Shown here one piece after another: positions 4,043 to 34,829 of a stretch of DNA of 64,000 nt. Under the pieces are notes generated by a model that saw only the letters and a list, made by a program, of their open reading frames with translations, ran no database searches and had not been told where the DNA came from. The position numbers and the translations under genes were made by a program. Origin of the DNA: Microvirga massiliensis (GTDB lineage: Bacteria; Pseudomonadota; Alphaproteobacteria; Rhizobiales; Beijerinckiaceae); contig NZ_LN811352.1 in the NCBI RefSeq assembly GCF_001006805.1, positions 680,454 to 744,453 of the forward strand. The letters run 5' to 3'. How positions within the stretch are numbered: position 1 is the first letter of the stretch; every line of letters begins with the position of its first letter.

Positions 4043-5979
4043 CACGGTCCATCCTGATCGTCGTCACCCACCTGCTTGGAGCGGGTCACCTGACGCGTGC
4101 TGCTGCCCTCGCCCGTGCGCTCGCCGCGACGGGACATCGTGTCGTGCTGGTTTCGGGCGGCATGCCCCAGACGCTGATCTCGTCCGGTGATGCGACCCTC
4201 GTGCAGCTCCCGCCCGTCCGCATCTCCGGTACGGATTTCACCAAGCTTCTCGATGAGACCGGCCAGCCCGTCGACGAGGCCAGGATGGAGGCGCGCCGAC
4301 GCCTTCTTCTGGAAACTTATGAGGAGATGCAGCCGGACGTCGTCGTCACCGAGCTTTTCCCGTTCGGTCGGCGGGTGCTCGCGGATGAATTCCTCGCCGT
4401 GCTCGAATCCGCGGAGGCAGCGCGGCCACGGCCGCTCGTCGTCTGCTCAATTCGCGACATCCTCGTATGGCCCAAGCGACCGGAGCGAGCGGAGGAAACC
4501 CATGCGCGCCTGCGACGGTTCTATGATCTGGTCCTCATGCATGGGGATGAGGAACTGGTACCGCTCTCGGCATCCTGGCCCGTCGACGATTCCATCAAGA
4601 GCTTCCTGAAACCGACGGGATATATCGATGATGGGATCCAGCCCTCGATTCCGCGGACCCCGCGGCGAGGCATCGTCGTCGCCGGCGGCTCGAGCGCCGC
4701 CGCCATACCGCTCTTGAGAGTGGCGCTCGAAGCGGCTCGCGGAATCTGGGAGCAACCCTGGCAGGTGCTGGTCGGGCAGGGAGTATCGGAATTCGATTTT
4801 CGGATGCTTCAGGAACTTGCCTCGGCGCATACGAGCGTCGAGCGTGCACAGCCGGATTACCGGCAGCGTCTCGCGTCCAGCGCTCTCTCGATCAGTCAGG
4901 CTGGCTACAACACGACCGTGGACCTTCTCCGCACGAGACCGCGCAGCATCCTGATACCGTTCGAGGCCGGAGGAGAGACCGAGCAGCGTCTGCGAGCAAA
5001 GTGCCTCGAAAAGGCCGGGAGAGCGATCGTCATCGCGGAGGGCGAACTCAACGCCTCTCGCCTCCAGGCAGAAATCAGAAAGTCGCTGGCAGGTCCCCTC
5101 CCCCCGGTTGCGGCGGTGAATCTCGATGGACTTGCGCGAAGCGTTTCGCACCTTGAAAGCTGGTGCCCGGCGCGTCCGTCTCTGGGCCGACCATTGCCCT
5201 TCGCGGCGCTAGACCACGCGCTGGACCGCGCCCGTGAGCGTGGAATCGAGATTTCATTCTGGTGGCGAGACGATGATGCGGTCGAAGCGACGCCAGCGCT
5301 CGAGCGGTTGCTCGGACTTGCGGCTGCCCATCACGTCCCGCTCGCACTCGCGGCAATTCCGGCCCGGATTCGACCGTCGCTGTCGGAGCGGATTTCCGAT
5401 GCCGAAAATGTGTCGATCCTGGTCCATGGCTTGCGCCACGCGAACCATGCTCCCCGCGGCGAGAAGAAGGCCGAATTCGGAGACCACCGCGCTCTGTCGG
5501 ACCTCCTCGGCGATGCGCGCGCGGGCCTCGAGAAGGCGCGGATCTCGATTCCCGGGAAGGTGTTGCCTGTCTTCGTTCCACCTTGGAACCGTGTTTCCCC
5601 TGCTCTCGTCTCCCAGCTCCGCAGGGCAGGATACTGGGGTCTCTCGGCCTTCCGGGATCGCACGACCGCCGGCCGGGCATCTGGCCTCCTCCAGGTCAAT
5701 GCTCACCTCGACCCGATTGCCTGGCATCGCGGCCGAGGCCTCGACGATCCGGCCTGCCTCGTCCGGCAATTGTCCGACTGCGTCGAGCGTCGTCTCACCG
5801 GAACGACCGATCCCCGGGAACCGATCGGGTTACTGACGCATCATCTCGTGCAAGATGGAGCAACTTGGGACTTTTGCGAGAAACTCCTCGGTTACCTGAA
5901 GGAACGGGCCGTTCCGTTCGCCGGTGCGGCTTCCCTGTTCACGCGTGAACCGCCATCCTCCGGAGAGCGCGACCGATGA
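4039..5979 (+). CDS. Fusion of MurG-like glycosyltransferase and polysaccharide-deacetylase-like domain
   Basis: 646 residues when started at 4039 (MTRSILIVVTH); the frame is open further upstream but that part overlaps the previous gene and is coding in another frame, and ATGA overlap with the previous stop supports 4039. Residues about 1-370 form a GT-B fold of the same type as the protein at 372 (GAGHLTRAAALARALA; later SQAGYNTTVDLL). After a linker, residues about 400-640 look like a NodB/DUF2334-type polysaccharide deacetylase: FWWRDDDAVEATPALERLL (metal-binding Asp pair), ILVHGLRHANHAPRG (His motif) and FVPPWNRVSPALV. A single protein could thus add a sugar and de-N-acetylate it, which is inference. 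Stop overlaps the next gene. Confidence 0.75.
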   Translation: MTRSILIVVTHLLGAGHLTRAAALARALAATGHRVVLVSGGMPQTLISSGDATLVQLPPVRISGTDFTKLLDETGQPVDEARMEARRRLLLETYEEMQPDVVVTELFPFGRRVLADEFLAVLESAEAARPRPLVVCSIRDILVWPKRPERAEETHARLRRFYDLVLMHGDEELVPLSASWPVDDSIKSFLKPTGYIDDGIQPSIPRTPRRGIVVAGGSSAAAIPLLRVALEAARGIWEQPWQVLVGQGVSEFDFRMLQELASAHTSVERAQPDYRQRLASSALSISQAGYNTTVDLLRTRPRSILIPFEAGGETEQRLRAKCLEKAGRAIVIAEGELNASRLQAEIRKSLAGPLPPVAAVNLDGLARSVSHLESWCPARPSLGRPLPFAALDHALDRARERGIEISFWWRDDDAVEATPALERLLGLAAAHHVPLALAAIPARIRPSLSERISDAENVSILVHGLRHANHAPRGEKKAEFGDHRALSDLLGDARAGLEKARISIPGKVLPVFVPPWNRVSPALVSQLRRAGYWGLSAFRDRTTAGRASGLLQVNAHLDPIAWHRGRGLDDPACLVRQLSDCVERRLTGTTDPREPIGLLTHHLVQDGATWDFCEKLLGYLKERAVPFAGAASLFTREPPSSGERDR

Positions 5980-7916
5980 CGATTGAACCGAAGGATCGTA
6001 TCATGGCGCCGGCACCCGAGCGGCTCGGAAGTGGCCCGGGGGAGAAAGCGAAAGCCCCTTTGCTGTCGGTACGGCAACTGGTTGTCGATTTTCGGACGGA
6101 CGCGGGCGATCTCCGCGCAGTCGACGGTCTGTCGCTCGATATTCCGGCCGGCCGTACCGTTGCGGTCGTGGGCGAATCCGGCTCCGGAAAGTCGGTCACT
6201 GCGCAGGCGATCATGCGCATTCTCCCGAAGGCGGCTCACATCGGCGGCGGCTCGATCGTTTTTCGGGATCCTGCGGGCCGTTATCCGCCCGTCGACATCG
6301 CCGGCCTCAAAGCGGACGGCGAGGAGATGCGTGCGCTTCGCGGCGGGCGCCTGGCGATGATCTTCCAAGAGCCGATGACGTCGCTGTCGCCCCTCCACAC
6401 GATTGGCGACCAGGTTTCCGAAGCCCTCCGAATTCATGCGGACGTGACCCAGGCCGAAGCGAAGAAGCGGGCAGTAGAAGTTTTTGCACGAGTCGGCTTC
6501 CCGAACCCGAAACGAGCCTTTCATACCTATCCGTTCGAGTTGTCCGGCGGCCTTCGTCAGAGGGCCATGATCGCGATGGGCCTGATCACCCACCCCGCCC
6601 TGCTCATCGCGGACGAGCCCACGACGGCGCTCGACGTGACGACTCAGGCGCAGATCCTCGACCTCATCAAGGAATTGCAAGCCGATACGGGCATGTCGGT
6701 ACTGTTGATCACCCATGATCTCGGCGTTGTCGCCAATGTCGCCGACGAGGTGGTGGTCATGTATCGCGGCCGGGTGATGGAGGCCGGCAGCCGCGAGGAG
6801 ATCTTCAGGAATCCGCAGCATCCCTATCTAAGGGCCTTGATGCGGGCCGTTCCACGCTTCGACATGAAGCCGGATGAGCGCCTGGTGCCGATCCGCGAGA
6901 TTCGCTCCGCTGCTCTGGCGCGCGCGGATGCGCCGCCCCGCAACGAGCCGGCTCGGCTCATTCTCAAGGCGGAGAACCTCCGCAAGACCTATACCTTGAG
7001 GACAGGCTGGTTCTCGGGCCGGGTGAGGACCATCGACGCGGTGAAAGGGGTCAACCTGACGCTCCGCGCCGGAACGACATTGGGGCTCGTTGGCGAGTCC
7101 GGCTGCGGCAAGACCACCGTCTCGAAGATCATCATGCGCGCGATCACACCCGATCAGGGACGCGTATTGTTCGATGACGGCACAGGGCCGCAAAACGTCC
7201 ATGAACTGTCCGGAGAAGCCCTGACGCGCTACCGAAGGTCGGTGCAGTTCGTCTTCCAGGATCCATTCTCGTCTCTGAACCCACGGATGACGGTGTATGA
7301 GATCCTCACCGAGCCGCTGAAGATCCACCAGGTCGGCAGTCCGGACGAGCGCTATCACCGGGCCAAGCAACTCCTCGACATGGTGGGATTGGATCAGCGC
7401 GCGTTGCGCCGCTATCCTCACTCGTTCTCCGGGGGCCAGAGGCAGCGACTCGGCATTGCCCGAGCCCTCGCCCTGGAGCCTCGCGCGCTGCTCTGCGATG
7501 AGCCCGTCTCGGCCCTCGACGTTTCTGTACAGGCACAAATCCTCAATCTTCTGAAGGATCTCCAGTCGGCGCTTGGTCTGTCGTACCTGTTCGTGTCCCA
7601 CAATCTCGCCGTCGTCGATTACATCGCCGACACGATCGCCGTCATGTGCAGGGGCTACATCGTCGAGGAAGCACCGAAATCCCTGCTGTTCCGAAACCCG
7701 GCACATCCTTACACGCAGGCCCTTCTCGCAGCCGTTCCCGACCCGGATATCGACCGCCCCCTCGACTTCGCGAAGCTGCGCACGGGCCGTTTCTCCAACC
7801 CGGCTGATTGGCCGGAGCCCTACAGGCTCCTAGGAGGCGAGGCAGGGACCATGGTCGAGATCGAGCAGGGTCACTTCGTTCGCACTGCGCCATCCGCAAT
7901 CCTGGAGGCAGCCTGA
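5976..7916 (+). CDS. Dual ATPase of family-5 (oligopeptide-type) ABC importer
   Basis: 646 residues carrying two complete ABC ATPase domains, the arrangement of YejF/GsiA. First domain: Walker A GESGSGKS near residue 67, signature LSGGLRQRAMIAMGL, Walker B LLIADEPTTALDVT. Second domain: Walker A GESGCGKTTVS near 375, signature FSGGQRQRLGIARALAL, Walker B ALLCDEPVSALDVS. Each domain is followed by the RNPQHPYLRALM / RNPAHPYTQALL segment of the oligopeptide/dipeptide C-terminal domain. It overlaps the fusion gene upstream (ATGA) and the binding-protein gene downstream (TGATG), so the whole run is probably one operon. It powers the two permeases at 9850 and 10866. Confidence 0.93.
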   Translation: MTIEPKDRIMAPAPERLGSGPGEKAKAPLLSVRQLVVDFRTDAGDLRAVDGLSLDIPAGRTVAVVGESGSGKSVTAQAIMRILPKAAHIGGGSIVFRDPAGRYPPVDIAGLKADGEEMRALRGGRLAMIFQEPMTSLSPLHTIGDQVSEALRIHADVTQAEAKKRAVEVFARVGFPNPKRAFHTYPFELSGGLRQRAMIAMGLITHPALLIADEPTTALDVTTQAQILDLIKELQADTGMSVLLITHDLGVVANVADEVVVMYRGRVMEAGSREEIFRNPQHPYLRALMRAVPRFDMKPDERLVPIREIRSAALARADAPPRNEPARLILKAENLRKTYTLRTGWFSGRVRTIDAVKGVNLTLRAGTTLGLVGESGCGKTTVSKIIMRAITPDQGRVLFDDGTGPQNVHELSGEALTRYRRSVQFVFQDPFSSLNPRMTVYEILTEPLKIHQVGSPDERYHRAKQLLDMVGLDQRALRRYPHSFSGGQRQRLGIARALALEPRALLCDEPVSALDVSVQAQILNLLKDLQSALGLSYLFVSHNLAVVDYIADTIAVMCRGYIVEEAPKSLLFRNPAHPYTQALLAAVPDPDIDRPLDFAKLRTGRFSNPADWPEPYRLLGGEAGTMVEIEQGHFVRTAPSAILEAA

Positions 7917-32274: not shown

Positions 32275-32751
32275 TCACGACCCTGCGGGGGTAGCCAGAC
32301 TCGCGAGGCAGAGCCGCGCAATTCGGGGCGCTTCAGGACTCGCGAGAGGGCTTATACTGCGCTCACACCCGATCGGCATTGGCGCACGACGCGGATCTGT
32401 CCTGTTGGCAGGCTCGGAGTCGTTCGGCGGAGTCGTGGGCCCGCCGGAGGGCTTCAGCACGATCTGAGGGATCTCGGCGCCCCGTGCGACCCGGGTGATC
32501 CCGGTCATCGGGTCCGACATGTAGAGAAGCCTGCCGTCGCGGGCTCGAAGTATGATCTGCCCTCCGGACAGGCTCCGGATCTCCGTACTGGCTACGGGCT
32601 CGCGCGCGGCGATCTTCGGAGCTGCGAGCCGGTCGCCACGGGGCAGCGCTTCAGAGGAGCCGACCTGGTGACGAACCATCGCCGGCGCTGCACTGGCCAG
32701 TACGAACGCGGCGCTCGCCAATCCCGCGAGCATTGTGGATGCGCCAAACAT
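32275..32751 (-). CDS. Exported protein of unknown function (158 residues)
   Basis: Started at 32751 (MFGASTMLAGLASAAFVLAS), giving a clean signal peptide. The longer frame to 32853 would run through the EcfG-type promoter at 32792-32816, so it is not used. The mature protein has a small beta-rich core (IRSLSGGQIILRARDGRLLY, MTGITRVARGAEIPQIVL), a Pro/Asn linker and a C-terminal Cys-containing motif GCERSISPLASPEAPRIARL. I know no function. The two cysteines (GCERS and RLCLAS) could form a disulfide in the periplasm. Confidence 0.72.
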   Translation of the reverse strand: MFGASTMLAGLASAAFVLASAAPAMVRHQVGSSEALPRGDRLAAPKIAAREPVASTEIRSLSGGQIILRARDGRLLYMSDPMTGITRVARGAEIPQIVLKPSGGPTTPPNDSEPANRTDPRRAPMPIGCERSISPLASPEAPRIARLCLASLATPAGS

Positions 32752-32791
32752 CTTGGGAGTTCCCCGGGCTTCCAGCAAAGGTTGGCTTATC

Positions 32792-32816
32792 AACGCGGGA
32801 TTTACAGCCCAGTTCC
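32792..32816 (-). promoter_or_regulatory. EcfG-type promoter (GGAAC-N16-CGTT)
   Basis: Reverse strand -35 GGAAC (32816-32812) and -10 CGTT (32795-32792), 16-bp spacer, leading to the exported-protein gene starting at 32751. Its position fixes that start codon. Confidence 0.72.
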
Positions 32817-32874
32817 TGGAGCGCCCGAGTAGCCGCAAATTCTTTCTGAGCAAAAATCTCTGACGGGTTCTTGT

Positions 32875-32899
32875 GGAACCTTTGTTTCGACCGCACGTT
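32875..32899 (+). promoter_or_regulatory. EcfG-type promoter of candidate sRNA B (GGAAC-N16-CGTT)
   Basis: -35 GGAAC at 32875-32879, -10 CGTT at 32896-32899, 16-bp spacer: an exact consensus match. A terminator follows within 100 bp and no gene lies between. Confidence 0.75.
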
Positions 32900-32905
32900 T
32901 CTCAA

Positions 32906-32992
32906 GCACCCGGCCACCTGGTCCTCCCCGCATTCCCCTTGTGCATTGGCCGGAACCTTAGACGGGTCAGTTTTCTGACCCGTCTTTTTTGA
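32906..32992 (+). ncRNA. Candidate general-stress small RNA B (about 86 nt)
   Basis: Transcript predicted from the exact EcfG consensus promoter ending at 32899 to the T-run at 32992. Domain 1 is a hairpin CCGGCCA (32910-32916) / TGGCCGG (32948-32954) enclosing a 31-nt loop with two C-runs (GTCCTCCCCG and ATTCCCC), the first containing the anti-Shine-Dalgarno sequence CCTCCCC. Domain 2 is the Rho-independent terminator at 32962-32991. The layout (stem with C-rich loop plus terminator) is the same as candidate A at 30879 and recalls GsrN of Caulobacter, though no sequence identity is claimed. It lies between an exported-protein gene and phyR, both transcribed away from or against it. Confidence 0.68.
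32962..32991 (+). terminator. Rho-independent terminator of candidate sRNA B
   Basis: GACGGGTCAG-TTTT-CTGACCCGTC (32962-32985) followed by TTTTTT: a perfect 10-bp stem with a strong T-run. Confidence 0.85.
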
Positions 32993-33030
32993 GCAGAGCG
33001 CTCGAGCGCCGCTTGCCTTTGCAAACAAAA

Positions 33031-33050
33031 GCCCGGCACATCGGCCGGGC
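33031..33050 (-). terminator. Terminator of phyR (bidirectional hairpin)
   Basis: GCCCGGC / GCCGGGC arms around ACATCG, with AAAA on the left and TTTTT on the right, so it can end transcription in both directions. It lies 28 bp after the phyR stop. Confidence 0.75.
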
Positions 33051-33077
33051 TTTTTCGCTGATCCACGCGGGAGGGTA

Positions 33078-33878
33078 TCAGGCGGTGGCGCGCACCTCGC
33101 GGCGTCGCGCGCTCTGCTGAAAGAACAGGGCTTGGCTGATCACGGCCGAGACATTGGCCGGCTGGAAAGGCTTAGCGATCAGAAATGCTGGCTCCGGCCG
33201 TTCGCCCGTCAGGAAGCGCTCCGGATAGGCCGTGATGAAGATCACAGGCACCTCGAAGCTCTTGAGGAGGTCGTTCACCGCATCGAGCCCCGAGCTGCCA
33301 TCGGCCAACTGGATATCGGCCAGAATGAGGCCCGGACGCTTCGAGCCGGCCAGCTTGACCGCTTCCGTACGGGTACGTGCCACACCAGTGACATTATGAC
33401 CGAGCCCCTCGACCAAGGCCTCGAGATCCATGGCAATAAGGGGCTCATCCTCGATGATGAGGATGTCCGTGGCCATGTCTGCGGCAAGTTCGCGACCCGC
33501 CTCGTCCACGAGTTCGCGGACGGTCTCCGTATCAACGGAGAGGATCGAGGCCGTCTCCTCCTCGGAGAATCCTTCCAGGCAGGACAGAAGAAATGCCTGC
33601 CGAGGCAAGGGCGTGATCTGCCCGATGCGGACTTCCGCAGGCAGGTCGCGCTGGATCTGCTCGCTTTTCCCATTCACGGACAGCGAGTTCCAGATCCGGG
33701 TAAATACCTGAAAAAGCTCTACCTTCACATTGGCCGACCCGATCGTATCCGGTTCGCTGACCAATGTTTCGAGTGTCGCAGCCACGTAAGCGTCGCCAGC
33801 CATCTGGCTGCCGGTGAGTGCGCGGGCGTAGCGGCGGAGGTATGGCAAGTGCTGGACGACAAGCTGGGCTGTCGACAT
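33078..33878 (-). CDS. phyR: PhyR, response regulator and anti-anti-sigma factor of the general stress response
   Basis: 266 residues from the ATG at 33878 (MSTAQLVVQHLPYLRRYARA), with AAGGGGA upstream; the 24 residues added by the longer frame are not PhyR-like. Residues about 5-130 form the ECF-sigma-like domain (ending in SEEETASILSVDTETVRELV), which has lost DNA binding and binds NepR. Residues about 138-255 are a receiver domain with acidic pocket E143/D144 and phospho-acceptor D188 (LILADIQLADG), Thr in VIFITAYPE and Lys in FLIAKPF. Phosphorylated PhyR captures NepR and frees EcfG. It is divergent from nepR-ecfG, the canonical arrangement, and has its own EcfG-type promoter. No PhyK/LovK-type kinase gene is in the window. 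Confidence 0.96.
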   Translation of the reverse strand: MSTAQLVVQHLPYLRRYARALTGSQMAGDAYVAATLETLVSEPDTIGSANVKVELFQVFTRIWNSLSVNGKSEQIQRDLPAEVRIGQITPLPRQAFLLSCLEGFSEEETASILSVDTETVRELVDEAGRELAADMATDILIIEDEPLIAMDLEALVEGLGHNVTGVARTRTEAVKLAGSKRPGLILADIQLADGSSGLDAVNDLLKSFEVPVIFITAYPERFLTGERPEPAFLIAKPFQPANVSAVISQALFFQQSARRREVRATA

Positions 33879-33936: not shown

Positions 33937-33961
33937 AACGCCTTTCCCACAGCAAGGTTCC
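33937..33961 (-). promoter_or_regulatory. EcfG-type promoter of phyR (GGAAC-N16-CGTT)
   Basis: Reverse strand -35 GGAAC (33961-33957), -10 CGTT (33940-33937), 16-bp spacer, 59 bp before the phyR start. Its -35 lies only 8 bp from the -35 of the divergent nepR promoter. Confidence 0.82.
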
Positions 33962-33969
33962 AAGCTGCC

Positions 33970-33994
33970 GGAACCGAGAGCGAGAGTGCGCGTT
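33970..33994 (+). promoter_or_regulatory. EcfG-type promoter of nepR-ecfG (GGAAC-N16-CGTT)
   Basis: -35 GGAAC at 33970-33974, -10 CGTT at 33991-33994, 16-bp spacer, about 62 bp before the nepR start. It provides the usual positive autoregulation of the sigma factor operon. Confidence 0.82.
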
Positions 33995-34056: not shown

Positions 34057-34284
34057 ATGAATCGTGACAATCGGCTGGCTCGGGCAGTCCCCGACCAGGC
34101 GCCCGCTCCCAAAGTGTCAGCCGCTCCAAGGGTGGATCGGACAGCACAGGCGCGAATCGGTGACAAGCTGCGGTCCATGTATGCGGACCTCGTCCAGCAG
34201 CCGGTTCCGGATCGCTTTACCGATCTCCTCTCGCAACTCCAGGAATCCGACGATGTCGCCGATGGAGCGGAGAAGCGGGCATGA
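34057..34284 (+). CDS. nepR: NepR, anti-sigma factor of EcfG
   Basis: 75 residues. The conserved NepR core of two helices is RIGDKLRSMYADLVQQPVPD followed by RFTDLLSQLQ (about residues 33-62); the N-terminus is variable and probably disordered. NepR sequesters EcfG until phosphorylated PhyR binds it. The stop overlaps the ecfG start (ATGA), which keeps both proteins in fixed ratio. Confidence 0.93.
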   Translation: MNRDNRLARAVPDQAPAPKVSAAPRVDRTAQARIGDKLRSMYADLVQQPVPDRFTDLLSQLQESDDVADGAEKRA

Positions 34285-34829
34285 GTGTCGATCCCGAAAT
34301 GCGGGATGCGCTCCTGGCCGCTGTTCCCGGCCTTCGTGCCTTTGCGATCTCGCTCAGCGGCCAGGTCGATCGCGCCGACGACCTCGTCCAGGACACGCTT
34401 CTGCGGGCTCTTGCCAATATCGATCGCTTTGAGCGCGGGACGAACCTAAACGCCTGGCTCTTTACGATCCTGCGCAATCTCTTCCATTCCGAGTTCCGGA
34501 AACGACGCCGCGAAGTGGAGGACCCTGACGGGTCGCTCGCAGGCCGCCTCCAGATTCAACCGGAACAAGGCGCACATCTGGATTTTGAGGATTTTCGCGA
34601 GGCACTCAACAAGCTCCCGGCAGATCAGCGGGAGGCCCTGCTCCTCGTCGGTGCGTCCGGGTTCTCCTATGAGGAGGCTGCCAATATCTGTGGTTGCGCG
34701 GTCGGCACCATCAAGAGCCGCGTCAACCGTGCACGTTCGCGTCTGGCCGCTCTTCTGGCCGTCGATGGGGTAGAGGATCTCGGCCCTGACCGGACCACCC
34801 GCGCGGCCCTCCAGACTGCAGCGCTCTGA
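34281..34829 (+). CDS. ecfG: EcfG, general stress response ECF sigma factor
   Basis: 182 residues. Region 2 (RADDLVQDTLLRALANIDRF, then NLNAWLFTILRNLFHSEFRK) and region 4 (LPADQREALLLVGASGFSYE and CAVGTIKSRVNRARSRLAAL) are both complete. It directs RNA polymerase to promoters of the GGAAC-N16/17-CGTT type, many of which are readable around it. It shares most of its residues with the second sigma factor at 38191, pointing to duplication. A terminator follows 22 bp after the stop. Confidence 0.95.
   Translation: MSVDPEMRDALLAAVPGLRAFAISLSGQVDRADDLVQDTLLRALANIDRFERGTNLNAWLFTILRNLFHSEFRKRRREVEDPDGSLAGRLQIQPEQGAHLDFEDFREALNKLPADQREALLLVGASGFSYEEAANICGCAVGTIKSRVNRARSRLAALLAVDGVEDLGPDRTTRAALQTAAL

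Follow-up and report, generated by a model that had tools for sequence, protein, structure and literature searches.

In the alphaproteobacterial general stress response (GSR), stress and the activation of PhyR free the sigma factor sigma-EcfG via PhyR-NepR. Methylobacterium is among the organisms in which PhyR and this response have been worked out.

The EcfG promoter consensus is given in the accessible part of PMC4814048 as GAAC-N16,17-C/GGTT. GsrN-like RNAs have been predicted near the GSR locus in Caulobacteraceae, Rhizobiaceae, Brucella, Rhodopseudomonas and Bradyrhizobium (Tien et al. 2018, PMC5869019), and the accessible part of that paper describes no Methylobacteriaceae member among them. 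SmelA075 and SmelA099 of the Rhizobiales are multicopy RNAs with anti-Shine-Dalgarno loops of the sequence CCUCCUCCC and three or four hairpins, according to the part of PMC3927594 available to us.

Here we analyse a locus beside phyR in a 64-kb stretch of Microvirga massiliensis DNA (the window). A preliminary description had proposed an EcfG-dependent small RNA gene at this place, GsrN-like in design and without a described counterpart at the locus. The last point is contradicted by the predictions in other families (PMC5869019), and the marks of such a gene, namely promoter, hairpin, terminator and conservation, are present in the sequence. In the open-access literature, which omits most subscription journals, we found no description of this small RNA, no small RNA described for Methylobacterium and nothing relevant on small RNAs of Microvirga or Methylorubrum.

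The candidate shares with Caulobacter crescentus GsrN and the GsrN-like RNAs a sigma-EcfG-type promoter (recognised here by sequence alone), proximity to phyR and ecfG, a 5' hairpin with a C-rich loop, a 3' intrinsic terminator and likely pairing to G-rich leaders (PMC5869019). It differs from GsrN in its core, which, as far as that source describes it, consists there of six tandem C's, in forming a multicopy family on different stems, and in its proposed target, the gene of a PepSY-like secreted protein. A search of 16 genus genomes for the tested target of GsrN, katG (TIGR00198), found it missing in 15 of them, this genome included, and we therefore reject it as a target; for the same reason the GsrN mechanism is not simply transferable. 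The promoter, the GSR locus, the C-rich hairpin and the terminator of the proposed GsrN-like design stand. We describe a resemblance in anatomy, drawn from a comparison of features, and with katG missing do not claim membership.

Variable stems, a conserved C-rich loop, several genomic copies and a link to stress are likewise found in SmelA075 and SmelA099, as far as PMC3927594 is available. The candidate, however, has one C-rich hairpin with CCCCGCAUUCCCCUUGUGC and a terminator where those RNAs have their CCUCCUCCC loops, and is not of those families. Its proposed logic, in which a stress sigma factor acts through small RNAs on envelope genes, resembles that of the E. coli sigma-E-dependent RNAs MicA and RybB (PMC8103513, seen in part); the sigma factor and the targets are others, and the likeness is one of logic.

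Results

Anatomy of the locus

The candidate is read from the plus strand and converges on phyR. Its features and neighbours are as follows.

32875-32899, plus strand: sigma-EcfG-type promoter GGAAC-N16-CGTT, GGAACCTTTGTTTCGACCGCACGTT (exact motif in the sequence)
32905-32991, plus strand: inferred small RNA of about 86 nt (start set by the promoter spacing and end by the terminator; fold z -5.5)
32910-32916, plus strand: 5' arm of the outer stem, CCGGCCA (from the fold, compensatory changes in paralogues and a C-G to U-A exchange in three g393 orthologues)
32919-32925, plus strand: loop segment TGGTCCT, invariant in 49 aligned phyR-linked orthologues
32923-32929, plus strand: loop C-run CCTCCCC (from the sequence)
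32926-32944, plus strand: core CCCCGCATTCCCCTTGTGC, 19 nt, the proposed mRNA-pairing segment (from genus-wide exactness, paralogues and leader complementarity)
32930-32933 with 32941-32944, plus strand: mini-hairpin GCAT/GTGC inside the core (predicted fold)
32933-32940, plus strand: loop C-run TTCCCCTT (from the sequence)
32947-32953, plus strand: 3' arm of the outer stem, TGGCCGG (from the fold and compensatory changes in paralogues and g393)
32960-32985, plus strand: intrinsic terminator AGACGGGTCAG-TTTT-CTGACCCGTCT, perfect, 11 pairs, with a T-run to about 32990 (terminator scan)
33027-33053, no strand assigned: hairpin with T-run between the small RNA and the phyR stop (read by eye)
33078-33872, minus strand: phyR, convergent with the small RNA (Pfam PhyR_sigma2, PhyR_sigma-like, Response_reg)
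34281-34829, plus strand: ecfG-like sigma factor gene (Pfam Sigma70_r2/r4_2, PhyR_sigma2)

The exact consensus promoter and the perfect terminator agree with the preliminary description. Judged from these two signals, transcription would start about 6 nt past CGTT, near 32905, and would give an RNA of about 86 nt. The stretch 32905-32992 folds with a minimum free energy of -37.1 kcal/mol, compared to -21.2 (sd 2.9) for shuffled sequences (z -5.5), and none of 200 shuffles folds as well. The hairpin CCGGCCA/TGGCCGG had been described as exposing a long loop: its stem and both C-runs, including CCTCCCC, are present, but the loop is not fully open, as the predicted mini-hairpin forms within it and presents UCCCCUU.

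EcfG-type motifs (spacer 15-18) occur 12 times in the window against 1.72 expected in shuffles, an excess of the kind expected near a GSR locus. A second exact motif at 32792-32816 on the minus strand faces away from the small RNA, so that the two promoters are divergent; it leads into a 192-codon open reading frame (32275-32853, minus strand) with no Pfam hit, whose true start probably lies further inside. Divergent EcfG-type motifs are also seen at 33937-33994, between phyR and a putative nepR-ecfG unit in which nepR is assigned by position alone.

At the gathering score, none of the 4227 families of Rfam 15 matches in the window or in four paralogue loci, and beyond this there were sub-threshold scores only; a known Rfam family is thus rejected. 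We also rejected the explanation that the element is only a terminator of phyR: a separate hairpin at 33027-33053, which is missing from the list of the terminator scan, is probably phyR's own.

Conservation beside phyR

We searched 61 genomes for the 20-base pattern CCCCGCATTCCCCTTGTGCA with up to two mismatches. It was found in 36 of them, all belonging to the window's genus (37 genomes searched, this genome counted) and each with an exact copy; the 24 other genomes had none, and the reversed control gave 0 matches. All but one of these 37 genus genomes, this genome counted, likewise carry the core CCCCGCATTCCCCTTGTGC without change. A model of the element, R1, recovers strong copies from 27 of 28 genus genomes, the remaining one (G025, an assembly of 780 contigs) showing weak matches only.

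A scan of named genomes yielded at least 115 stretches in at least 80 loci, and 75 of the 80 loci listed carry the title Methylobacterium, Methylorubrum or Microvirga. Taking TGGTCC ahead of the core as the mark of an orthologue, 70 of these 80 listed loci qualify; the other ten were sorted by eye into seven paralogues (L061, L063, L069, L081, L092, L094, L124), one target site (L073) and two chance matches (L099, L115). Among the matches listed, 69 of the 70 orthologues have a correctly placed GGAAC-N16/17-C/GGTT, compared to 7 of 14000 mononucleotide shuffles, and they retain this promoter while the flanks have diverged. Among the same matches, phyR is nearby in 66 of the 67 sufficiently long loci, convergent in 66 of 66, and starts 494-1340 bases from the core. 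Four listed orthologues have no phyR in view: three of these loci end too early, and L121 has none within 8 kb.

Scans of more than 40 genomes, among them the one with R1 and the two that follow, use stricter filters by which weak matches are lost. With model R2, 17 of the 149 genomes of the family sample match, in the genera g1, g28, g393 and g407; the class sample of 387 genomes (E<=0.01) yields two matches, this genome and its family member G144, and none outside the family. From shared sequences, we take g1 to be Microvirga, g28 to be Methylobacterium (with Methylorubrum) and g407 to comprise relatives of strain YIM 77505. The three g393 genomes, which again have phyR nearby, show a C-G to U-A exchange in the outer stem (CTGGCCA/TGGCCAG); their mini-hairpin differs in its 3' half and is broken.

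In 60 sampled phyR loci of other families, a few candidates with an EcfG promoter and a C-rich loop were seen by eye (L274/L275, L304, L306, L315). One of them, L306 (G087), lies about 1347 bases beyond phyR, and its loop ..CCCCCCGCCCTCCCTTGTGG.. resembles the core; it is a possible distant relative in another family.

The same orthologues bear on the possibility that a small peptide is encoded. A GTG-started frame (V/M-H-W-P..) runs off the core, but a complete open reading frame of at least 8 codons exists in only 10 of 75 orthologous stretches, these frames are mutually unlike, and there are insertions and deletions inside the loop. We reject this explanation, which is hardly credible.

Compensatory changes in the stems

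The orthologue alignment comprises 49 sequences chosen from 77 considered; 75 stretches were found, and L064 and L126 have no TTTT run. Across the 49, 94.2% of the cells of the full structure are paired, compared to 90.8% with shuffled partners, and 49 cells are changed on both sides, compared to 17.1 in shuffles, a value that none of 500 shuffles reaches. A measure based on further pair types is weaker, with 37 of 500 shuffles reaching the observed value. Two-sided changes occur at 8 of the 12 stem pairs of the terminator. In the outer stem, five of the seven pairs never vary and one shows the two-sided change of g393. The innermost A-U pair is unpaired in 35 of the 49 orthologues, so that the seven-pair stem of the preliminary description is conserved as one of six pairs.

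Paralogues add variation to this stem. In the paralogue-rich alignment A4, all seven outer-stem pairs change on both sides in some sequence, and over all pairs there are 45 two-sided cells compared to 13.2 in shuffles (0 of 500 reach this); A4 is fitted to the structure and includes three low-scoring rows that are probably chance matches. Of its 38 sequences, 15 fail to pair at one end of this stem and 10 at the other. The stems of 21 members, compared without a fitted model, score 10.5 when the arms are matched and 6.8 when they come from different stem types; since two of the four types are alike, 39 of 264 cross-type combinations attain the lowest score of a matched pair. Conservation of the stems between species had been proposed as a check on the gene, and the stems are indeed conserved, with compensatory changes in both the outer stem and the terminator.

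Judged from these comparisons, the element appears to be an RNA gene and not a chance feature, and it lies beside phyR in Microvirga, Methylobacterium/Methylorubrum and two further genera, a group living in soil and on plant leaves in which it has hardly changed. A chance hairpin, a bidirectional terminator or a repeat without an RNA gene is very improbable and was rejected: such motifs are individually common in high-GC DNA, but the fold z-score, the two-sided stem changes and the conservation of position, promoter and structure across genera argue against it, and phyR has its separate hairpin.

A multicopy family

BLAST within the same genome gave seven further matches, six of which have the design of the small RNA, with a core-bearing stem, a terminator and an EcfG-like promoter that reads C/GGTT in five of them and CGCT in one. 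L006 and L008 were weak BLAST matches, yet have the full gene structure; L007 lies apparently within a coding sequence and was excluded. The core is exact in two paralogues, carries one substitution in another and small insertions in three. Their stems are of the types CGGCCC/GGGCCG and TGCGGAGGC/GCCTCCGTA, such that the sequence differs and the pairing is kept. There may be two more weak copies, at G000:C1:550390 and C17:202452 (E about 1e-4). The paralogue L210 (G000:C34, a contig of 10.5 kb) adjoins a second ecfG-like gene and a HisKA_2 kinase gene, at 4529-6849.

Other genus members have copies with GGACC(C) stems. By eye, most of the GGACCC-stem copies L216-L218, L221-L223 and L226-L228 have GGAACC and no CGTT at EcfG spacing, and the copies without CGTT carry GAATTA, GATTA or similar at the -10 place, which suggests another ECF sigma factor.

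A complementary site in an mRNA leader

Two stray matches to the core (L073, L267) proved to be the antisense of mRNA leaders. The leader of L073 (M. oryzihabitans) contains GCACAAGGGGAATGCGGGG, the exact complement of the core, and a second near-site directly before the ATG; that of L267 (g407) contains GCACAAAGGGAATGCGGGG ahead of the ATG. The downstream proteins are homologous, with 29% identity and an E-value of 4e-12 in a single comparison of partly biased sequence, and a hint of PepSY_2 in them is weak (E 0.035, below the cut-off). An N-terminal profile finds this PepSY-like gene in 86 of the 149 family genomes and in 59 of the 59 Methylobacterium genomes sampled; the profile was built from two genes picked by their sites, and the 59 genomes were sampled regardless of site.

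We scored leaders by their best ungapped match to the 19-nt core, with G-U counted as half. The 63 leaders (61 Methylobacterium, 2 g407) have a mean best complement of 16.64 of 19, compared to 12.26 (sd 0.22, maximum 13.0) for 300 shuffled cores and 12.5 for the antisense strand. The complement reaches at least 15.5 in 55 leaders; of the eight below, six improve with one bulge, and L376 and L382 show no site. Across the 55, the site has a mean identity of 0.93, compared to 0.53 and 0.52 for its flanks; the selection of these leaders favours this figure. Methylobacterium species are related and the 63 leaders are not independent, and it is the divergence of the flanks among such relatives that argues for selection on the site; since the core is invariant, it cannot covary with the site.

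Duplexes were scored for the best 30 loci of the 86 genomes with the gene. For the eight leaders from RNA-bearing genomes, the predicted duplex energy ranges from -33.5 to -48.5 kcal/mol (z from -1.95 to -6.2), and the 22 from genera without a detected copy reach z -2.05 to +1.8; these ranges overlap, the two weakest of the eight (z -1.95 and -1.99) not exceeding the best leader of an RNA-less genus (z -2.05). Within the same best 30 of 86, none of the 22 homologue leaders from genera without detected RNA has a core complement of at least 15.5 (mean 12.2, maximum 14.0). In several leaders, a further predicted pairing joins TGGTCCT to a GGACC that lies downstream of the site. The core-complementary site in the leader of the PepSY-like gene of Methylobacterium and one sister genus (g407) is, on this sequence evidence, a new finding.

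Two other causes of site conservation were rejected. Pairing within the leader scores no better than for a shuffled site (best own-leader partner 12.1), and an EcfG-driven antisense RNA gene is not indicated, an EcfG-like motif being present on the antisense strand in 7 of 63 leaders and on the sense strand in 2 of 63. Separately, L340, L342 and other Methylobacterium leaders have a strong hairpin of the type GGAGGACCYGC-GCCAACA-GCRGGCCTCC between site and start codon, with compensatory differences by eye.

A sponge or decoy arrangement, in which the leader sites soak up the RNA or the RNA decoys a leader binder, is quite improbable. Complementarity has no direction and seven leaders have a second site, but the sites precede one homologous gene in most of the 61 Methylobacterium and both g407 genomes, and sometimes cover the ribosome-binding site of that gene.

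The place of the site bears on the sign of regulation. In both genomes of g407 and in seven leaders of Methylobacterium, either the main site or a second one (found near the start codon in seven of the 63 leaders) is just before the start codon, where pairing should block translation; repression of an envelope or secreted protein in stress is therefore likeliest there. In most Methylobacterium leaders the site is about 100-220 nt upstream of the region of protein similarity, where the effect may go either way. This distance from the start codon would suit a GsrN-type activator that pairs with leaders, protects or opens them and raises translation of stress-protective proteins, as GsrN does on katG, and the promoter type, locus, C-rich loop and terminator are alike. 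Nevertheless we hold such an activator to be rather unlikely, given the missing katG, the sites on the ribosome-binding site in some genomes, which favour repression, and the restriction of R2 matches to the family in the class sample.

Search for targets in Microvirga

The five other Microvirga genomes of the family sample gave no match to the PepSY-like gene at E<=1e-4, and this genome has only a short distant relative without the site. Across the window the best other complement of the core scores 14.5. In 25 Microvirga genomes we obtained 31 core matches with exactly 3 mismatches, compared to 17 in the reversed control; with one match at 2 mismatches these make 32, of which 31 fall beneath open frames longer than 120 codons, and no recurring leader with a long core complement was found among them. 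The pairs L430/L447 and L437/L449 are each one shared sequence inside long open frames. By eye, L451 and L455 (G007, G011) have sites with 3 and 2 mismatches over apparent LysR-like and TadE-like frame starts.

That the core is invariant in Microvirga suggests that the RNA has a target there. Alternatively, the core could bind a protein, with leader complementarity being secondary: the 19 nt are kept in Microvirga, where no recurring long target was found, and a short seed alone needs no 19 invariant bases. The long complement in a conserved leader speaks against protein binding, and we regard it as unlikely.

Discussion

We consider it likely that the element is a small RNA gene of the alphaproteobacterial general stress response whose core pairs with G-rich leaders, in Methylobacterium and g407 with that of the PepSY-like gene. 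Its gene structure, conservation, covariation and complementarity can be read from the sequence. From these we infer transcription, stress control, binding and the direction of regulation. Two points go beyond the preliminary description, namely the multicopy family with its 19-nt core and the conserved complementary mRNA-leader site in Methylobacterium.

In the proposed mechanism, freed sigma-EcfG would transcribe the small RNA from 32875-32899, as its promoter implies. The outer stem would present the C-rich core for pairing and the terminator would end the RNA, and the core would base-pair with G-rich mRNA leaders. In Methylobacterium and g407, the leader of the PepSY-like secreted protein would be paired over 16-19 of the 19 positions in most leaders. 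In Microvirga the RNA and its six promoter-bearing paralogues share the core, and a target may need only short seeds (CCUCCCC, UUCCCCUU).

More tentatively, and with some doubt, the core may be a portable guide carried on four stem types (two of them alike) and under sigma-EcfG promoters, perhaps also under those of a further ECF sigma factor, such that several stress circuits would write the same RNA message. Its almost full-length pairing with a single conserved Methylobacterium leader would then represent a repressing arm, so far unseen, of the Methylobacteriaceae general stress response. A small RNA beside phyR in four genera, together with a long leader site, would make the post-transcriptional stress response directly testable in a genetically tractable organism.
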